From NCBI GenBank assembly GCA_903888625.1, contig CAISUD010000035.1:1-42959 (forward strand): DNA of 42,959 bases. Direction: 5' to 3'. Each line of letters opens with the position of its first letter. Positions within the stretch are counted from its first letter, which is position 1. The translations under genes were made by a program, and so were the position numbers. Below, in pieces: positions 1-14,579 of the stretch. The notes below the pieces were generated by a model. That model was given only the letters and a program-made list of their open reading frames with translations. It searched no databases and was not told the DNA's origin. The stretch is from an uncultured bacterium (GTDB lineage: Bacteria > Patescibacteriota > Minisyncoccia > Phycocordibacterales > UBA9973).

Positions 1-432
<432 letters not shown>

Positions 433-4118: not shown

Positions 4119-4145
4119 ACTTAAATTTCTAAACTATTTTTAAAT

Positions 4146-5939
4146 ATGGAAAAACTAAAAAATATTGTGCGCAGTTTTAAATTACCAAAAAAATCGGAAG
4201 TTAAATCCGCCTTTTATTCTTTTTCAAAAAAAGAAAAAATAATATTTATTGGACTAGCACTGGTTCTATTTATTTGCACTATTGCTATTTTAGAAAATAT
4301 CAACAAATCTTTCATGGTCGCGGTGCCTGCTCGTGGTGGTTCCCTTTCCGAAGGTATTATCGGTACTCCACGTTTTGCAAGTCCAGTCCTCGCAATTTCT
4401 GATGCCGACAAAGATTTAGTTTCTTTAGTTTATTCAGGACTAATGAGAAAAAATCCGGACGGAGAATTAATTCCAGACTTAGCCGAAAATTATACAATAT
4501 CTCCTGATGGTTTGACATACACTTTCACTTTGAAAAATAAAATTTATTTTCAAGATGGTAAACCTGTAACGGCAAATGATGTCGTCTTCACCATCAATGA
4601 AATTAAGGACCCAGTTATCAAAAGTCCACTTAAAGGAAATTGGGATGGTATCAATGTAGAAAAAATTGACGACCAAACAGTTAAATTTACTTTAAAACAA
4701 CCTTACTCTTCATTTTTAGAAAATGCTACTGTCGGGATAATGCCTGAATCTTTATGGAGTGGTTCTCCACTTGAACTAAATAGTGCCAATACCAATCCTA
4801 TCGGCTCTGGTCCATTTAAAGTCTTAAATGTTAATAAGCAGTCTTCTGGGATTATCGATTCTTATACTCTTTCTTCTTTTAATAAATTTGCTTTAGGTAA
4901 CCCTTATTTGGGAAAAATCATTTTGCATTTTTATTCCAACGAAGATGATATGATCTCTGCCTTAAGAAATGGCACAGTGGACCAAGTGAGTTCTATCACT
5001 CCAGCCAATGCCGAAATTTTACGAGAAGAAAATTATCAAATAGACTCGGCTGTTTTACCAAGAGTTTTTGGCCTTTTCTTTAACCAAAATCAAGCTAAAA
5101 TTTTTACTGACAAAAATGTCGTTAAAGCCATCAACCTAGCAATCAACAAAGATAATATAATCAAACAAGTTTTAGCTGGCTATGGAGTAGTTATCAATGA
5201 TCCAATTCCTCCAAATATGATGGCTTACCAAAAATTAAGTGAAACAAACAATGCTTCTTATGAAGAAAATGTAGCGCAAGCCAAAAATATTTTAGCTAAA
5301 GATGGTTGGAAAATGGGTGCTGATGGATTTTTAACAAAAAATACTACTAGCACTAAAAAAATAACTGTTAAGGGCAAAACGACTACTAAAACTACTACCA
5401 TTACTGGTTCATCTGATTTAGGGTTTTCTATTTCTACTGGTAATACTCCTGAAATAGCCGAATCTGCTAATTTAATTGCACAAGATTTAGCTAAAATAGG
5501 GATAAAAGTTGATGTCAAAACTTTTGAAATTGGTGATTTAAACCAAATAGTAATTCGTCCTCGCAAATACGATGCTCTACTATTCGGTGAAATTATAAAT
5601 CACGAATCAGACCTTTTTGCTTTTTGGCACTCTTCACAAAGAAAAGATCCAGGGCTAAATGTAGCAATGTATGCCAATGCTAAAGTCGATAAACTATTAG
5701 AAGATGCTTCGATCACTATCAATGACAAAGCTCGAGTTTTGAAATACGCCCAATTTGAAAATCAAATCGAACAAGATATGCCAGCTGTCTTTTTGTACAG
5801 TCCAGATTTTATTTATGTTGTCTCTAAAAATCTTGAGGGTCTTTCGACAGATCATATCGTCTCGACTTCTGATAGATTTTCAAATTCATATCTTTGGTAC
5901 ACTGAGACCAATGATGTTTGGAAAATATTTGTCAAATAA
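4146..5939 (+). CDS. ABC transporter substrate-binding protein, family 5 (peptide/oligopeptide-binding type)
   Basis: 597 aa; N-terminal TM anchor; LVYSGLMRKNPDGELIPDLAENYTISPDGLTYTFTLKNKIYFQDGKPVTANDVVFTI is typical SBP_bac_5. Confidence 0.9.
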   Translation: MEKLKNIVRSFKLPKKSEVKSAFYSFSKKEKIIFIGLALVLFICTIAILENINKSFMVAVPARGGSLSEGIIGTPRFASPVLAISDADKDLVSLVYSGLMRKNPDGELIPDLAENYTISPDGLTYTFTLKNKIYFQDGKPVTANDVVFTINEIKDPVIKSPLKGNWDGINVEKIDDQTVKFTLKQPYSSFLENATVGIMPESLWSGSPLELNSANTNPIGSGPFKVLNVNKQSSGIIDSYTLSSFNKFALGNPYLGKIILHFYSNEDDMISALRNGTVDQVSSITPANAEILREENYQIDSAVLPRVFGLFFNQNQAKIFTDKNVVKAINLAINKDNIIKQVLAGYGVVINDPIPPNMMAYQKLSETNNASYEENVAQAKNILAKDGWKMGADGFLTKNTTSTKKITVKGKTTTKTTTITGSSDLGFSISTGNTPEIAESANLIAQDLAKIGIKVDVKTFEIGDLNQIVIRPRKYDALLFGEIINHESDLFAFWHSSQRKDPGLNVAMYANAKVDKLLEDASITINDKARVLKYAQFENQIEQDMPAVFLYSPDFIYVVSKNLEGLSTDHIVSTSDRFSNSYLWYTETNDVWKIFVK

Positions 5940-5978
5940 AAACTAATTAAAATTATTAATAAAAAAACTAACTAAAAT

Positions 5979-7958
5979 ATGAAGAAAAAAACTAGATTAT
6001 CTTTCAGTGCTATCAGTATTGAACCAGCCAAGAACGCGACCAACAGCTTAAAGGCCGTCAATAACAATAAATCTACCCACCATCATCAGAATCATCCTGC
6101 TCGTCCTTTTAATTCTTCGAATAATCCAAAAAGAGAATTTGGAGGAGGAAAAAATAAACAAAAAAGTTCTACTTACCAATATTCTAAATTTGGCAAAGGA
6201 GGCAACCGAAACAAAGGCTTTGGTGGTAGTAAAAATCAATATCAAAATCCTAACGAAAATAAAATTCCACCACTCGAAGAGGGTAAAATTAGAATTATCC
6301 CACTCGGTGGAGTAGAAGAAATTGGAAAAAATATGACTGCCATTGAAATCGGAAATGATATCATCGTGGTTGATGCTGGAATGCATTTTTCCAATGAAGA
6401 AACTCCCGGAGTTGATTACGTAATTCCAAATACTACTTATTTAGAAGAACACAAAGACAAAATCCGTGGTCTCTTTATCACCCACGGGCACTTGGACCAC
6501 ATCGGTGGCGTGCCACTTGTCCTTTCTCGGATTGGCAATCCACCAGTTTATTCCAGAAACATTTCTATTCTTTTAATTAAAAAACGACAAGCAGAATTCC
6601 CTCACTTACCAGCTATCAAAACTGAAGTAGTTGAAAAAGATGGCACGATGATGTGTGGGAAAATTAAATTAAGATTTTTCGGTGTTACTCATACCATTCC
6701 TGATTCAATGGGTATCATTGTTGAAACAAAAAATGGTTGGATTGTAACTCCTGGAGATTATAAATTAGACCAAATAGATGGCGTCGTTTCCAAGGAAGAA
6801 GAAAAAGAATATTCTATTTTTGATAAAGCCAAAGTACTTTTATTAATGACTGATTCTACTAATATAGAAAACGAGGGCTATTCATTGCCTGAGATAAAAG
6901 TACACCAAGGGCTAGAAAATTTAATTAAAAAAATAAATGGCCGAATAATTATTGCTGCTTTTTCTTCTTCAATCACTCGTTTAACCCACGTAATAAAAGT
7001 GGCTGAAAATTTAGGTAAAAAAGTTGCTATCGATGGTCGTTCAATCAAAACCAACATTGAGGTAGCCAGTGAAGCCAACTTTTTCAAACCAAAAAAAGGG
7101 ACAATCGTTCCGATCGAAGAGGCAGATAGTTACCCTCCTAATAAAACAATTGTTCTTATGACTGGAGCCCAGGGTGAAGAATTTTCATCTCTCAATCGTG
7201 CTTCGAATAAATCGCATACAAAATTTTCTCTACATAAAGGTGATACGATTATTCTTTCTTCCTCTATCGTGCCAGGTAACGAACTTCAAGTTCAAAAAAT
7301 GAAAGACGGTTTGTCTCGCCAAGGAGTGAAAATAATCAGTTATCGAACTCCCGGAGAAGATTTCGTCCATGCAACTGGTCACGGCAACAAAGAAGACATT
7401 CGTTGGCTTCACAAAAAAACTCATCCAAAATTCTTTATTCCAATTCATGGAAATCATTTTATGCTTGAATTACATAAAGAATTAGCCATGGAAGTCGGAA
7501 TGCCAGAAAAAAATGTCATTGTACCAGATAATGGTTCAGTTATTGAAATTTCAGCTGATGGAGAAAGAATCGAACTTCGTAAGGAACGGGCTCCAGCTGC
7601 TCCAATGATGGTAGATGGACTCGCTATTTCTGATGTTCAAGATGTTGTTATTCGAGACCGACAAATGCTAGCTCAAGATGGAATGTTTGTCATCATTGCC
7701 CTTGTTGATCAAAATTCAGGCAAATTAAAAAAATCTCCAGACTTGATTTCTCGTGGCTTCGTTTATCTAAAAGAAAATCAAGAACTTCTTCGCCAAGTCC
7801 GAATCATTATCAAAAAAACAATAGAAGATAGTGCTCCGAAAACCAACCCAATTGACTTTGATCAAATCAAAAATAATTTGGGTGAAACAATTTCAAAATT
7901 CTTATATCAAAAAACTGCTAAAAGACCACTCATTATTCCAGTGATTTTAAGTGTCTAA
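5979..7958 (+). CDS. rnj: Ribonuclease J (metallo-beta-lactamase/beta-CASP)
   Basis: IIPLGGVEEIGKNM, THGHLDHIGG, HATGHGNKEDI, PIHGNH motifs. Confidence 0.95.
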   Translation: MKKKTRLSFSAISIEPAKNATNSLKAVNNNKSTHHHQNHPARPFNSSNNPKREFGGGKNKQKSSTYQYSKFGKGGNRNKGFGGSKNQYQNPNENKIPPLEEGKIRIIPLGGVEEIGKNMTAIEIGNDIIVVDAGMHFSNEETPGVDYVIPNTTYLEEHKDKIRGLFITHGHLDHIGGVPLVLSRIGNPPVYSRNISILLIKKRQAEFPHLPAIKTEVVEKDGTMMCGKIKLRFFGVTHTIPDSMGIIVETKNGWIVTPGDYKLDQIDGVVSKEEEKEYSIFDKAKVLLLMTDSTNIENEGYSLPEIKVHQGLENLIKKINGRIIIAAFSSSITRLTHVIKVAENLGKKVAIDGRSIKTNIEVASEANFFKPKKGTIVPIEEADSYPPNKTIVLMTGAQGEEFSSLNRASNKSHTKFSLHKGDTIILSSSIVPGNELQVQKMKDGLSRQGVKIISYRTPGEDFVHATGHGNKEDIRWLHKKTHPKFFIPIHGNHFMLELHKELAMEVGMPEKNVIVPDNGSVIEISADGERIELRKERAPAAPMMVDGLAISDVQDVVIRDRQMLAQDGMFVIIALVDQNSGKLKKSPDLISRGFVYLKENQELLRQVRIIIKKTIEDSAPKTNPIDFDQIKNNLGETISKFLYQKTAKRPLIIPVILSV

Positions 7959-9595: not shown

Positions 9596-11557
9596 TTAAT
9601 TACGGATAGCAATACCTTTTGGTGTATTAAACTGCCCGTTACCATTACCACTAGTTCCCCATCCGTTTACATATGTACCACTTGAAGTAAATTCTTGGAC
9701 ACTACTAAAATCACTGGCTGTAATATAAACATTTCCATTCGAACCTATGGCAATACTATTACCACCGTAATAAGTGCCACTGTTAACAAATTGCCATCCA
9801 AGAATAAAATTTCCGCTTGAATCAAATTCTTTAGCTTCAAAATTATCCAACACATAAACATTTCCATTTGGAGCAATAGCGATACCATGAGGATTACAGA
9901 AATGCCCACTGCAAGATCCCGGACCTGTCCATTGAGTAACATAAGTTCCATTGGAGGTAAATTCAAGTATACGACTGTAATAATCTGTCACATAAACATT
10001 TCCATTTGAAGCAATGGCAATATCCCAAGGATACATAATATTGCTGTCAGGTGAAGACCATTGGGTGATATAAGTACCGGAAGATGTAAATTCCTGTATA
10101 CGATGGGTTTCAACATCACCCACATAAACATTTCCATTTGGAGCAATGGCAATACCACTATGACCATTTTGGTTATTAAATTGTCCATTGCCTGTACCAT
10201 AACTTCCCCATTGAGTTACATATGTTCCGTTTGGAGTGAATTCTTGGATTTTATTAGTATGATCAGACACATAAATATTACCACTTGGAGCAATAGCAAC
10301 ACTGTCAGTTCCCAAAAACATTCCATTGTTTCCCCATTGACTAACATAGTTCATATTTGAATCAAATTTCTGGACACGATAATTCCCCCAATCCGCTACA
10401 TAAATATTTCCACTTGCCACCGGTCCATTTATTGTAAACAAATTATCAGAAAAATCTTGAATACTAGGATTTACTAATCTTACAACCTCAACTTTAAAGT
10501 GCTGTCCAGAAATTGCATTTGGATTGAAAGTTTGTATAAGTGAAATAGTTGGTAATGTAACAATTTCAATACCATCGTTTACTGATACACTTGAACCAAA
10601 AGAAATAGCTCCAATAGGTAAATCATTTATATCATAATATTGTAACTGCATTCCAATTTGTTCTGTCGTCGGTATATTACAAGTCTTCCACTTTATTGTA
10701 ATTTGCTGACCATCTTGATACACTTCTCCCCCATTAGGAGATAATACTTGAATCCAAGATGGCATACCTGGTAAACAAGCTCTAATTGGAACTATAACTG
10801 GGCTAGTTGCTCTTGCACCTGAAGAAGGAGTTACTGCAGAAACTTTTGGAGAAACAACGGTTGAAGGATTGATAATATTAGAAGGATTTATAGAAAAGAA
10901 ATTATCAGAAGAATCAGTAGAATCGGGATTAGCAGAAATACCAGGTGTATGTGGTGGTACTAATTGAATTAGTATTTTATAAAAAGTACCATACTGAAAG
11001 GCACCTGGATAAAATTGAGAGGCTACGGGTAAAGTAAAAGTTGTTGAATTCCCAGCCCGATAATAATTACCTAAATCTTTTCCTGCAAATTTAAAAGATG
11101 CTGTCCATTGACTATTTACAGAACTTGCTTGATCAAGATAAACAACTAATTCATCATTTGCTGGTATCATTTTACAGCCATCTGTCCATGTAACGGTAAT
11201 TGTCTGACCTGGGGTATATACTTCTCCTCCATTTGGTGAAATAACGTGAACATCAGTACCAACACAAGGTATTGTAGCAGTACTTTTTACAGGGTTAGAA
11301 TTTGTAACGATAGCTGGAGTTGTAACCTTTGGTGCAGTTACAGTCGGTGGAACTACAACCTTTGCTGGTGTTGCTGTTGCTTTAACTGCCGACACTGCTT
11401 TTAAAGCAAGTCCTGATATTTCTACTTGAAGATCTGAAACTTGTTTTTGCAATGACTTAATTTGAGCCATTACGTCATCGTAAGTAGAGGCTTTAGCATG
11501 CGAAACTCCGACGAACAAAACTGCAACGAGAACGAAAATACTTATATATTTTTTCAT
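9596..11557 (-). CDS. Secreted surface protein with two Kre9/KNH-like domains and a C-terminal NHL-repeat beta-propeller
   Basis: Signal peptide; two ISPNGGEVY...GQ.ITV.W modules; repeated GNVYV.D....IQEFTSNGTYVTQWG units. Confidence 0.85.
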   Translation of the reverse strand: MKKYISIFVLVAVLFVGVSHAKASTYDDVMAQIKSLQKQVSDLQVEISGLALKAVSAVKATATPAKVVVPPTVTAPKVTTPAIVTNSNPVKSTATIPCVGTDVHVISPNGGEVYTPGQTITVTWTDGCKMIPANDELVVYLDQASSVNSQWTASFKFAGKDLGNYYRAGNSTTFTLPVASQFYPGAFQYGTFYKILIQLVPPHTPGISANPDSTDSSDNFFSINPSNIINPSTVVSPKVSAVTPSSGARATSPVIVPIRACLPGMPSWIQVLSPNGGEVYQDGQQITIKWKTCNIPTTEQIGMQLQYYDINDLPIGAISFGSSVSVNDGIEIVTLPTISLIQTFNPNAISGQHFKVEVVRLVNPSIQDFSDNLFTINGPVASGNIYVADWGNYRVQKFDSNMNYVSQWGNNGMFLGTDSVAIAPSGNIYVSDHTNKIQEFTPNGTYVTQWGSYGTGNGQFNNQNGHSGIAIAPNGNVYVGDVETHRIQEFTSSGTYITQWSSPDSNIMYPWDIAIASNGNVYVTDYYSRILEFTSNGTYVTQWTGPGSCSGHFCNPHGIAIAPNGNVYVLDNFEAKEFDSSGNFILGWQFVNSGTYYGGNSIAIGSNGNVYITASDFSSVQEFTSSGTYVNGWGTSGNGNGQFNTPKGIAIRN

Positions 11558-11595
11558 AATTTTAATGTTATGTTTAAAACATTTATAATGACTTA

Positions 11596-11624
11596 AGTAT
11601 AGCCCCCCCTTTATAGAAATGCAA
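11596..11624 (-). promoter_or_regulatory. Putative promoter of the NHL-repeat gene, with a G7 tract in its spacer
   Basis: Minus strand TTGCAT-TTCTATAAAGGGGGGGC (17 nt)-TATACT. Confidence 0.6.
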
Positions 11625-11705
11625 GTTTTTGTGTTAATTCAGTGTATTCTTTTTTCCCCTCTCCAGTATTCTAGAGAAAGCGAGGACGTGAGGTGATTTT
11701 TTTTA

Positions 11706-11734
11706 TTGACTTCCTATAGAGAAAAGCATAAACT
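11706..11734 (+). promoter_or_regulatory. Putative promoter of the cobalamin riboswitch transcript
   Basis: TTGACT (11706-11711), N17, TAAACT (11729-11734). Confidence 0.65.
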
Positions 11735-11759
11735 AAAGTAGTTGATTTAACAATTATAA

Positions 11760-11885
11760 AAATGATTGGGGAAACTGGTTTAATTCCAGTACAGTGCCGC
11801 TACGGTAAGCTCCGATTCGCCAATTTGGTGGATGGAGACAAGTCCGAATGCCAATAATTCAAAATATTTGTCCCGAGCAGGATTT
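11760..11885 (+). ncRNA. Cobalamin (B12) riboswitch-type leader
   Basis: GGGGAAACTGGTTTAATTCCAGTACAGTGCCGCTACGGTAAGCTCC...GGAGACAAGTCCGAATGCC fits the conserved GGGAA / GGU..AA.UCC / CCGC.AC.GUAA / AAGUCCGAAUGCC blocks. Confidence 0.85.
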
Positions 11886-11895
11886 GTTTAAGTTT

Positions 11896-11921
11896 AATTC
11901 TGCCCGCGCAGAATTTTTTTT
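11896..11921 (+). terminator. Intrinsic terminator of the riboswitch expression platform
   Basis: AATTCTGC-CCGC-GCAGAATT followed by a T-run; an upstream GCAGGA (11877-11882) can pair with TTCTGC as an antiterminator. Confidence 0.8.
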
Positions 11922-11992
11922 ATTTATCCCGTTAAAAAATTCAACAAACATAAATAAAAAACAATATTATTATTAATAAAATTTTTAATGGG

Positions 11993-12418
11993 ATGTCAAA
12001 AACAAAAATAAAAAAATTAATACCAATAATCCTTTTGATGATAATCTGTGGCTATTTAATTTCCACTTATTATAAATCTCCAGTCAAAACTTCTACCCAG
12101 ATTTTACCTATTAATACAGCAAATAATGCAATACAAACTACTCTCCTCTTGAGAGGGGTAAAATTAGAAAGTTCTATTTCACAGAAAACAAGCGTTTATG
12201 ATTTTATGCAAAAATTAGAACAAGAAAATAAAATAACTTTTCAAGCAAAAAATTATATTGGAATGGGAGAATTTATTGAAAGTATTAATGGAATAAAAAA
12301 TACCAATACGAATAATTGGATTTATTATATTAATAATGTAAAAGCAAATGTCGGAGTGTCGAATTATCAAATTAATCCGGGAGATGTCGTCTCCTGGAAA
12401 TATGAAGCTAATAATTAA
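11993..12418 (+). CDS. Membrane-anchored DUF4430/transcobalamin beta-domain-like protein
   Basis: N-terminal TM; SVYDFMQKLEQENKITFQAKNYIGMGEFIESINGI...NNWIYYINNVKANVGVSNYQINPGDVVSWKY has the DUF4430 / transcobalamin C-domain pattern. Confidence 0.8.
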   Translation: MSKTKIKKLIPIILLMIICGYLISTYYKSPVKTSTQILPINTANNAIQTTLLLRGVKLESSISQKTSVYDFMQKLEQENKITFQAKNYIGMGEFIESINGIKNTNTNNWIYYINNVKANVGVSNYQINPGDVVSWKYEANN

Positions 12419-12437
12419 TCTACGCCATGGCGTAGAT
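12418..12437. other. Perfect 20-bp palindrome between the two transcobalamin-like genes
   Basis: ATCTACGCCATGGCGTAGAT overlaps the stop codon of the upstream gene. Confidence 0.85.
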
Positions 12438-12445
12438 ACAAAAAT

Positions 12446-13975
12446 ATGAAACTAAAAAAGTTCTTGAGAATTTTGTTTTTAATAATCTTTTTATTTAGTG
12501 TTAAATTTAATAGTTTGCACGCACAAGTGTTTCCAGATAGTTCAGATACTTCTACTTCAACCGACCCAAACCCAGTTACCATCCATTTAATTATTGAAAA
12601 TAATTCAGGACATATCTATGACAACTCTAATTTAAATGTTAATGCTTGTGACAGTGACAATCCAAGCTCTGGCAATTTAACTGTCACTGCTTATTGTGCA
12701 GTTTTGCAATCAAATCTACCAAGCGATTGGAATCGTGCTTGGGCACCAGGAATTTTTCTAAATTCAATCAATGGTATTTCTGGCTTTACTACACAAGATT
12801 CAAATGGAACAGATGTCTACCATTATTGGAGTTGGGTATTACAAAGAGACCACAGTATTTCTGACGCTTTAGGTTTGAATGAATATCAATTGCAAACTGG
12901 CGACATAATAACTTTAACTTTTATCGACCCAGTAAACCCACCTCCTCCACCACCAGAATCACATATAGGTGGTGGAAATTATGTCGCTCCTAAAATTACT
13001 TTTGACCTACAAAAGGCGACCAACTTTTTAATTTCTAAACAAAAAACTAATGGCTCTTTTGAGGTAGATTTATATACCGATTGGACAGCTATAGCTCTAG
13101 CTTCAAATCAAAATACACCAAAAACAAATCTTGATCAATTAATAAAATATTTTTCTACTGAAACATTTTCTAGCACTCTTTTGACTGATTACGAAAGACA
13201 TGCAATAGCATTGATGTCACTTAATTTAAATCCATATAATCTAAATGGAGAAAATTTTATTAAAAAAATAATTGATAATTTTGATGGCACCCAGTTTGGA
13301 GATAAGGAAAAAGATAATGATGATATTTTTGCTCTGATTGTATTACAAAATGCAGGCTATACTGAGAATGATAAAATCATTTCTAATACTATAAATTTTA
13401 TTCTTTCAAAACAACAAAAAGATGGTTCTTGGGATGAAAATACGGATTTAACTGGAGCCGGGATTGAAGCCTTGTCCACGTTCCAAAATGACGAAAATGT
13501 AAAAAAAGCCCTAGAGAATGCCGAGAATTATTTAAAAAAGAATCAAAAGACAGATGGCAGTTGGGGAAATGTTTCTTCAACCGCTTGGGCAGAAGAAGGA
13601 TTAAAATCTCTTGATGAAAAAGTTAGTGATGCTACTTTAGAATATTTAGGAGAAAATCAAGATACAGATGGTGGGATAAAAGACACTGACACCAATAATA
13701 AACTATGGGAAACAGCTTACGTCGTCACTTCTCTATCAACCAAAACTTGGACAGAAATAATGCAAAAATTTGAAGCTCCAATTGAAAACTCTTCTAAAAA
13801 TATTTTAACTCCTGAACTAAAAAAAATAACCCTACCAGCCAAAAAAAGTATTGCCGAAGATAAAATACTTTTACCAAAGATAGAAGCAACTAGCCAAGAC
13901 CAAACACAAAATTTGCCGGTAGAAAAACCTAGTTTTTGGAGGAGGATATTAAATTTCTTTTTAAGTTTTAACTGA
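12446..13975 (+). CDS. Secreted transcobalamin/intrinsic-factor-like protein: N-terminal DUF4430-like domain, Pro-rich linker, alpha/alpha-barrel (prenyltransferase-like) repeats, C-terminal hydrophobic tail
   Basis: Signal peptide; YHYWSWVLQRD...LNEYQLQTGDIITLTF; PPPPPPE linker; repeats FLISKQKTNGSF, FILSKQQKDGSW, YLKKNQKTDGSWG, YLGENQDTDGGI. Confidence 0.8.
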   Translation: MKLKKFLRILFLIIFLFSVKFNSLHAQVFPDSSDTSTSTDPNPVTIHLIIENNSGHIYDNSNLNVNACDSDNPSSGNLTVTAYCAVLQSNLPSDWNRAWAPGIFLNSINGISGFTTQDSNGTDVYHYWSWVLQRDHSISDALGLNEYQLQTGDIITLTFIDPVNPPPPPPESHIGGGNYVAPKITFDLQKATNFLISKQKTNGSFEVDLYTDWTAIALASNQNTPKTNLDQLIKYFSTETFSSTLLTDYERHAIALMSLNLNPYNLNGENFIKKIIDNFDGTQFGDKEKDNDDIFALIVLQNAGYTENDKIISNTINFILSKQQKDGSWDENTDLTGAGIEALSTFQNDENVKKALENAENYLKKNQKTDGSWGNVSSTAWAEEGLKSLDEKVSDATLEYLGENQDTDGGIKDTDTNNKLWETAYVVTSLSTKTWTEIMQKFEAPIENSSKNILTPELKKITLPAKKSIAEDKILLPKIEATSQDQTQNLPVEKPSFWRRILNFFLSFN

Positions 13976-14579
13976 TTACAAAAAAACCAAGGAGCAGTGC
14001 CGTGACATTTAAAATTGAGTGCGCAATAGAAATCAAAACTAAATTGGGGTATTTTATATAGAGCCACGCAAATAAAATCCCAGAAACAAAAACTAAAGGT
14101 AAGACAATTCCCAAACTTGGATAAATAATATGCAAAAAAGTGAAAAGCAGGGCATTCACAATAATGACTACATATTTACTATTAAAAACCTTTTCTAGTC
14201 TTGGAATTAAGAAAGAACGATAAGCAAATTCTTGAAAAAATGAAATTGGAATAAAAAATATCCAGGTTTTCAAAAGAAACATTTTATTATCAATCTCTCG
14301 AATTTGCATCTTGTGAGCTATCATAAAAAGCACAAAAAAACTCACAACTGTAAAAATAAAATACGGTAGTAAAGATTTTTTGAAATTGTCATGCCGAATA
14401 CCCATTTCCAAATGGGTCCATTTTTCGTGATGAATAATTCCATAAATAAACAAAGCGCTGACCGTAAGTAAAATAATCCGCCAATTTAAAGGCAAAATTT
14501 TAAAAAATAAAAGCGAAACAGGTAAAATAAAAATCAAAAATATTTGTGCCAAAATCAATTTTCTAGATGGTGTGTGCAT
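13968..14579 (-). CDS. CPBP-family intramembrane protease-like protein
   Basis: Multi-TM; FFQEFAYRSFLIPRLE (EExxxR-like) and FTFLHIIYP, SIAHSILN motifs. Confidence 0.8.
   Translation of the reverse strand: MHTPSRKLILAQIFLIFILPVSLLFFKILPLNWRIILLTVSALFIYGIIHHEKWTHLEMGIRHDNFKKSLLPYFIFTVVSFFVLFMIAHKMQIREIDNKMFLLKTWIFFIPISFFQEFAYRSFLIPRLEKVFNSKYVVIIVNALLFTFLHIIYPSLGIVLPLVFVSGILFAWLYIKYPNLVLISIAHSILNVTALLLGFFVIS

Follow-up and report, generated by a model that had tools for sequence, protein, structure and literature searches.

A riboswitch-led gene pair in an uncultured patescibacterium is a probable surface module for cobalamin capture

Introduction

What is the role of two exported-looking proteins encoded behind a putative cobalamin (vitamin B12) riboswitch in an uncultured bacterium of the Patescibacteria? 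The locus lies at positions 11706-13975 of contig CAISUD010000035.1 (assembly GCA_903888625.1), whose whole length of 42,959 nucleotides we call the window; it is contig C35 of a 0.90-Mb, 64-contig, 97%-complete genome (G000; the letters L, G and C mark our locus, genome and contig numbers). A first-pass annotation, made from the letters alone, had read the pair as a surface cobalamin capture system, suited to a small-genome organism that scavenges cofactors. That reading held up in our analysis, which adds to the riboswitch and the protein folds a PduO-type adenosyltransferase, a ribonucleotide reductase (RNR) of the adenosylcobalamin (AdoCbl)-dependent type and a CbrT-like S component elsewhere in the genome. 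We conclude that the locus is probably a B12-repressed, surface-anchored cobalamin capture module that supplies the RNR.

The leader RNA and its switch

The elements of the locus follow one another 5' to 3' on one strand in the order sigma-70-like promoter, cobalamin riboswitch, intrinsic terminator, ORF1 and ORF2 (ORF, open reading frame), and a gap of 27 bases separates the two ORFs. Structure models are rated by their predicted local distance difference test score (pLDDT).

11706-11734 (+): sigma-70-like promoter TTGACT-N17-TAAACT, from a pattern scan, 9/12 matches
11745-11883 (+): cobalamin riboswitch aptamer with the conserved TCCCGAGCAG element; RF01689 (AdoCbl-II) core at 11752-11859
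11877-11884 (+): candidate antiterminator element GCAGGATT, with 8-base complementarity to the terminator 5' arm AATTCTGC
11896-11921 (+): intrinsic terminator AATTCTGC-CCGC-GCAGAATT-TTTTTT; hairpin 11896-11915, 8 pairs, loop CCGC, T run
11993-12418 (+): ORF1, 141 aa; N-terminal membrane helix (10-26) and one DUF4430/transcobalamin-beta-like domain (about 46-139)
12418-12437 (no strand assigned): inverted repeat ATCTACGCCATGGCGTAGAT between ORF1 and ORF2, terminator-like on the minus strand only
12446-13975 (+): ORF2, 509 aa; PF13243 E 1.1e-9; model pLDDT 84; N-terminal hydrophobic helix, DUF4430-like beta domain (about 44-160), alpha/alpha toroid (about 188-438), low-confidence linker, then a hydrophobic helix (497-506)

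The aptamer matched the Rfam family RF01689 on the plus strand at 37.1 bits (window E value 2.5e-5), which is 0.6 bits above the gathering score of 36.5 when the window sequence is taken alone, and it was the sole such RNA found in its genome. With a covariance model built from the upstream regions of relatives the score rose to 115 bits, the window sequence being one of the model's 24 rows. The 24 rows necessarily match their own model, and the 65 loci tested with it include several of the same places, so the independent evidence for the riboswitch comes from the Rfam matches and from loci outside the rows. Leaders of relatives matched RF00174, RF01482 or RF01689, some of them under the gathering score, and compensatory changes were found at two pairs of one 4-bp stem, each in 7 sequences. 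On this sequence evidence the leader RNA is a cobalamin-clan riboswitch. The riboswitch-like core recognized in the first pass is therefore borne out at the level of the clan, but the best-scoring class is AdoCbl-II and not plain RF00174. The narrow margin in the window would fit a chance match barely over threshold and without regulatory meaning; against it stand the score with the relatives' model (even though partly built from the window sequence), the presence of the riboswitch at 58 of the 65 orthologous loci, the compensatory stem changes and a conserved expression platform, and we regard an accidental match as scarcely credible.

The expression platform was examined in 41 leaders. The element CCGAGCAG after the aptamer is kept in 41/41, and a terminator stands at the matching place in 35 of them, compared with 0.2% of shuffles. 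In the window, the intrinsic terminator of the first-pass annotation was recovered, and six terminator-like sites occur in 11000-14500 where 1.7 are expected. Antiterminator pairing of at least 6 bp could be formed in 26/41 leaders, and in 0 of 2,050 shuffles. When the window leader was forced into each of the two states, the terminator and antiterminator folds had energies of -47.8 and -45.2, 2.6 kcal/mol apart. This architecture predicts a transcriptional OFF switch, i.e., repression by B12. When B12 is scarce in the cell, GCAGGATT would pair with AATTCTGC as an antiterminator, and ORF1 and ORF2 would be transcribed; when cobalamin is bound to the aptamer, the GCAG element would be kept in the aptamer fold, the terminator would form, and transcription would stop. 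We infer this direction of regulation because of the terminator/antiterminator architecture together with the usual behaviour of cobalamin riboswitches. The promoter proposed in the first pass is present, but sites of this kind are no commoner in the region than chance (20 found, 14.8 +/- 4.3 expected), and we treat it as unproven.

Two observations concern unusual riboswitch arrangements. At locus L085, two tandem cobalamin riboswitch matches precede ORF1 (4302-4423 and 4426-4535; G018:C1:27691-27924), scoring 68.7 and 46.9 bits. In genome G058 the riboswitch lies at one contig end (L166:6692-6818, +) and the start of ORF1 at another (L039:10137-10742, -), and the two may adjoin in the real genome.

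The two proteins

ORF1 had been described as a lone DUF4430 domain resembling the transcobalamin beta domain, and both profile and structure comparisons agreed. It matched PF14478 (DUF4430) with 54.9 bits (E 1.2e-14), passing the curated cut-off of 23.8 bits, and PF14478 also matched 64/64 of its homologues. The AlphaFold2 model, made from an alignment of 64 sequences, reached a pLDDT of 90 and starts with a hydrophobic helix. When this model was compared with the Protein Data Bank (PDB) by Foldseek, all 19 matches at E <= 1e-3 were transcobalamin (human, bovine and rat), haptocorrin, intrinsic factor or 3U7Z, with E values down to 4.7e-7; the last is the structure of a bacterial DUF4430 protein, titled 'putative metal binding protein'. 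Superposed on the isolated beta domain of transcobalamin with and without cyanocobalamin (5NP4, 5NO0), the model gave template-modelling (TM) scores of 0.82-0.83 by target and a root-mean-square deviation of 1.5-1.6. A phmmer search of the PDB with the single ORF1 sequence gave no matches, and a profile was needed. The model thus supports the view that ORF1 folds as the B12-binding beta domain of transcobalamin.

ORF2 likewise has the parts first ascribed to it, a DUF4430-like domain followed by alpha/alpha repeats: the structure model contains the beta domain and the toroid, and 29 of 58 ORF2 homologues matched PF14478. The transcobalamin family PF01122 was matched by 22/58 homologues at E <= 0.01 (best 4.9e-7). 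The fold matches of the model included transcobalamins, haptocorrin and intrinsic factor, with type II terpene cyclases as the best, so that the transcobalamin likeness sought in both proteins held for the ORF1 beta fold and put transcobalamin among the matches of the ORF2 toroid, but was outscored there by terpene cyclases. As modelled, the ORF2 fold by itself does not decide function, nor does ORF2 taken alone point specifically to transcobalamin.

These matches bear on another explanation, that ORF2 is a secreted enzyme with a toroid, a class II terpene cyclase or some other, in which the DUF4430 domains play an accessory part. Its best profile and fold matches are indeed to squalene-hopene cyclase and other type II terpene cyclases, and the NDD residues of the terpene-cyclase motif DxDD are invariant among the homologues. 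However, the first D is kept in only 22/58, the rest having V, I, F, Y, N, M or L. As DxDD is not preserved, we discarded a terpene cyclase role. The export-type helix, the position under a cobalamin riboswitch and the B12 genes that adjoin the pair in relatives also speak against it, and we rate an enzyme of this kind as very improbable. The complement-like thioester motif CGEQ was absent from all 58 homologues.

The folds suggest how cobalamin might be held. ORF1, anchored by its membrane helix, and ORF2, probably anchored by its C-terminal helix, would sit outside the membrane and bind cobalamin. Binding would likely follow the mode of transcobalamin, which encloses one B12 between its beta domain and its alpha toroid; here the clamp would be split over two polypeptides, and the toroid's partner could be ORF1 or the beta domain of ORF2 itself. 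When expressed separately, the two domains of transcobalamin come together in a cobalamin-dependent manner (PMC5599065), and therefore a split clamp is plausible.

Conservation of the locus in relatives

Loci homologous to the pair were found almost entirely in records named Candidatus Nomurabacteria and other Patescibacteria (Kaiserbacteria, Magasanikbacteria, Liptonbacteria, Wildermuthbacteria and Taylorbacteria). ORF1 and ORF2 occur together in 67/75 loci, and the figure given above for the riboswitch, 58/65, was obtained with the relatives' model and refers to the loci with enough upstream sequence. Within the genus, PF14478 was present in 25/36 genomes, among them that of the window, and every one of these 25 also has the riboswitch; among the 11 genomes without PF14478, G033 alone has it. 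There, the riboswitch (G033:C7, L164; 6156-6337, -, 38.6 bits) stands before a 641-aa ORF (4129-6054, -), in a genome without DUF4430.

Genes for B12 use adjoin the pair in many relatives. The order S component, RNR, adenosyltransferase, riboswitch, ORF1, ORF2 was seen in L032, L035, L048, L106 and others, and the order RNR, S component, riboswitch, ORF1, ORF2 in L105, L111, L112, L114 and L123; at least one of the three genes lies in the 5-kb upstream flank of 17/65 loci. DUF4430 and the S component also co-occur genome by genome within the genus (23/25 versus 2/11, Fisher p 2.8e-5, with relatedness not corrected). The search of sister genomes proposed in the first pass thus found both the riboswitch-gene pair and, in the same locus in many relatives, an RNR of the AdoCbl-dependent type.

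Two loci of the same genus, L054 (G025:C20) and L055 (G016:C11), are built differently. In both, the place taken elsewhere by the PduO type belongs to an unrelated adenosyltransferase of the CobA type; the riboswitch comes next, and behind it stands one DUF4430 protein and no toroid ORF. This arrangement favours the idea that only the DUF4430 domains bind B12 and that the ORF2 toroid is a docking, spacer or cell-wall-interaction module, with no alpha/beta clamp, as do the closer resemblance of the toroid to terpene cyclases than to transcobalamin and the reported ability of the transcobalamin beta domain to bind cobalamin in isolation (PMC5599065). Against this, the toroid is the best-conserved part of ORF2, with ten residues invariant in 58/58 homologues (N291, D292, D293, F295, Q323, D334, W381, Q405, W421 and W435), and the PF01122 matches and the pairing of the two ORFs in most loci point the same way. 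We consider binding by the DUF4430 domains alone unlikely, yet an explanation to be taken seriously.

Two records stand apart by their titles. L154, from a Chloroflexaceae record, has an AdoCbl riboswitch at 4414-4561 (52.8 bits, gathering score 50) before an 804-aa protein (4677-7091) that looks exported and has two toroid-like halves, with no DUF4430 by eye; this may be a non-patescibacterial relative of the system. L102 (JAMPXW010000002.1) is titled Burkholderiales bacterium, has a Nomurabacteria-type locus, and appears to be mislabelled.

Candidate B12 genes elsewhere in the genome

Three genes of a possible B12 route were found on other contigs of the window's own genome:

C60:13052-13570: PduO-type cobalamin adenosyltransferase
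C41:32388-34265: RTPR-type ribonucleotide reductase
C13:12485-12964: energy-coupling factor (ECF) S component, CbrT-like

The RNR matched TIGR02505 with E 2.1e-81 and 274 bits, under the curated equivalog cut-off of 340, and its nearest solved structure is the RTPR 1L1L (E 6e-46); in the relative L032 the B12-RNR insertion domain PF21995 is present. These similarities identify the enzyme of the window's genome as a putative class II, AdoCbl-dependent reductase of the RTPR type. No other RNR was found in this genome in searches for NrdJ_Z/NrdA/NrdE-like proteins at E <= 1e-10 and for NrdD. None of the B12-binding domain PF02310, BtuC/FecCD and CbiQ/EcfT was found in the genome, at its 97% completeness.

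The first-pass annotation was right that no B12 transporter is visible in the window, but the genome does have the S component on C13. A profile of the S family had as its best PDB match CbrT of the L. delbrueckii B12 transporter (6FNP_A), with E values of 0.062 when 7 sequences were used and 0.026 when 20 were used, and the alignment was colinear over about 136 positions, most of the length. Pfam and NCBIfam weakly name the riboflavin S family for this protein, and phmmer with the single sequence gave no PDB matches, so that a profile was needed. Relatedness to CbrT is suggested by these comparisons, which are not proof of it. In L162 (G057:C19), which belongs to another family, a CbrT-like S gene (4638-5285, -) lies behind a weak AdoCbl riboswitch match (5257-5411, -; 35.2 bits, gathering score 50).

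The linkage seen in relatives argues against a further alternative, in which the riboswitch is real and the pair acts at the surface in another way (adhesion, cell-wall contact, binding of heme or metal) and is simply kept in step with B12 status. The title given to 3U7Z would suit such a role, and B12 binding by the pair is inferred from folds and context. However, the S component, RNR and adenosyltransferase genes adjoin the pair in relatives, animal B12 carriers are the nearest folds, and a Lactobacillus DUF4430 protein near rtpR is annotated as a putative cobalamin ECF transporter component (PMC9963975). A function other than B12 capture appears improbable to us.

Other features of the window

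A 16S rRNA fragment covering model positions 1-422 lies at 1-432 (-), the gene being broken by the contig end. Between 17169 and 31649, mostly on the minus strand, we recognized by eye a long purine-synthesis cluster (folD, purB, purC, purM, purE, purD, purN, purF, purQ and purL-like), which is unexpected for a genome this small.

Discussion

The analyses described above are consistent with a cobalamin capture module that supplies the RNR. The pair would capture B12 outside the membrane and hand it to the CbrT-like S component; the PduO-type enzyme would then adenosylate it for the class II RNR. Several results weigh against this. Besides the terpene-cyclase matches of ORF2, the window's own ORF2 scores 13.2 bits with PF01122, under the cut-off of 25, and 15/41 loci lack antiterminator pairing of 6 bp or more. 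In the window's genome, the S component, RNR, adenosyltransferase and pair are all on separate contigs. Genomes G005 and G011 have DUF4430 without an RTPR-type RNR, and G029 and G031 have the S component and RNR without DUF4430, some of these genomes being incomplete. Finally, CbiQ/EcfT (PF02361) was absent in 41 genomes at E <= 1e-5 and present in 9/14 controls, and CbrT on its own failed to sustain B12-dependent growth of E. coli (PMC5997447); both results bear on how transport would be energised.

The closest known arrangements are the cobalamin loci of lactobacilli. In L. delbrueckii the order is nrdJ-cbrS-cbrT-pduO, with CbrT shown biochemically (PMC5997447), and in L. rhamnosus a DUF4430 protein near rtpR (LGG_02295/LRHMDP2_2713) has been called an 'additional lipoprotein component of putative cobalamin ECF transporter' (PMC9963975). 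As in many relatives of the window's bacterium, a class II RNR, a CbrT-like S component, a PduO adenosyltransferase and a DUF4430 surface protein lie side by side; in contrast, our system has a second protein with a toroid, a riboswitch directly before the pair, and no EcfT/CbiQ found, and it belongs to Patescibacteria. It extends a kind of system already predicted in lactobacilli, and what is new is the toroid protein, the direct riboswitch control, the split transcobalamin-like architecture and the occurrence in Patescibacteria. Our literature search, incomplete in coverage, returned nothing relevant on a bacterial transcobalamin-like protein, on such proteins in Patescibacteria, or on B12 together with RNR in that group.

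Other B12 proteins share features with the module. The Bacteroides lipoproteins BtuG and BtuH (PMC6143338, PMC8941943) likewise capture at the surface ahead of membrane transport, and BtuG loci are under B12 riboswitches, but their folds differ and BtuG partners the outer-membrane transporter BtuB. BtuM (PMC6072759) also imports B12 as an S-component-like protein, in an organism that lacks an ECF module; it is, however, described as unrelated in sequence to other proteins, has no link to a DUF4430/toroid pair, and carries an axial Cys80 in loop 3 for which no counterpart is shown here. The animal carriers transcobalamin, intrinsic factor and haptocorrin (PF01122 with PF14478) resemble the pair in the beta-domain fold of ORF1, the toroid fold of ORF2 and the PF01122 matches of ORF2 homologues. 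They differ in that the bacterial system comprises two polypeptides rather than one, places the ORF2 beta domain before the toroid, the reverse of transcobalamin, and is membrane-anchored, riboswitch-controlled and bacterial. The alpha-then-beta order in one chain was not found, ORF1 being a lone beta domain and ORF2 a beta domain and then a toroid, so we do not file the pair in the transcobalamin family and keep to the statement that it may work like one.

A more far-reaching proposal is that the locus encodes a two-part bacterial transcobalamin, in which ORF1 and ORF2 clamp one B12 between them and feed a CbrT-like S component that works with no recognisable ECF module, supplying the apparently only RNR of a Nomurabacteria cell, and that the animal carriers share ancestry with it. 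We advance this tentatively, as a possibility short of an even chance.

For an uncultured small-genome lineage whose DNA synthesis appears to need B12, the probable capture module offers a concrete and testable cofactor route, to which the pair is tied by riboswitch, gene order and co-occurrence genome by genome. It raises the question of what drives the S component where no EcfT is found. It also gives bacterial DUF4430 proteins a proposed role outside the lactobacilli, in a distant group, and hints that the animal alpha/beta B12 clamp has a counterpart in bacteria. If the two-part transcobalamin is true, the B12 carriers of animals would share ancestry with bacterial capture proteins of this kind.

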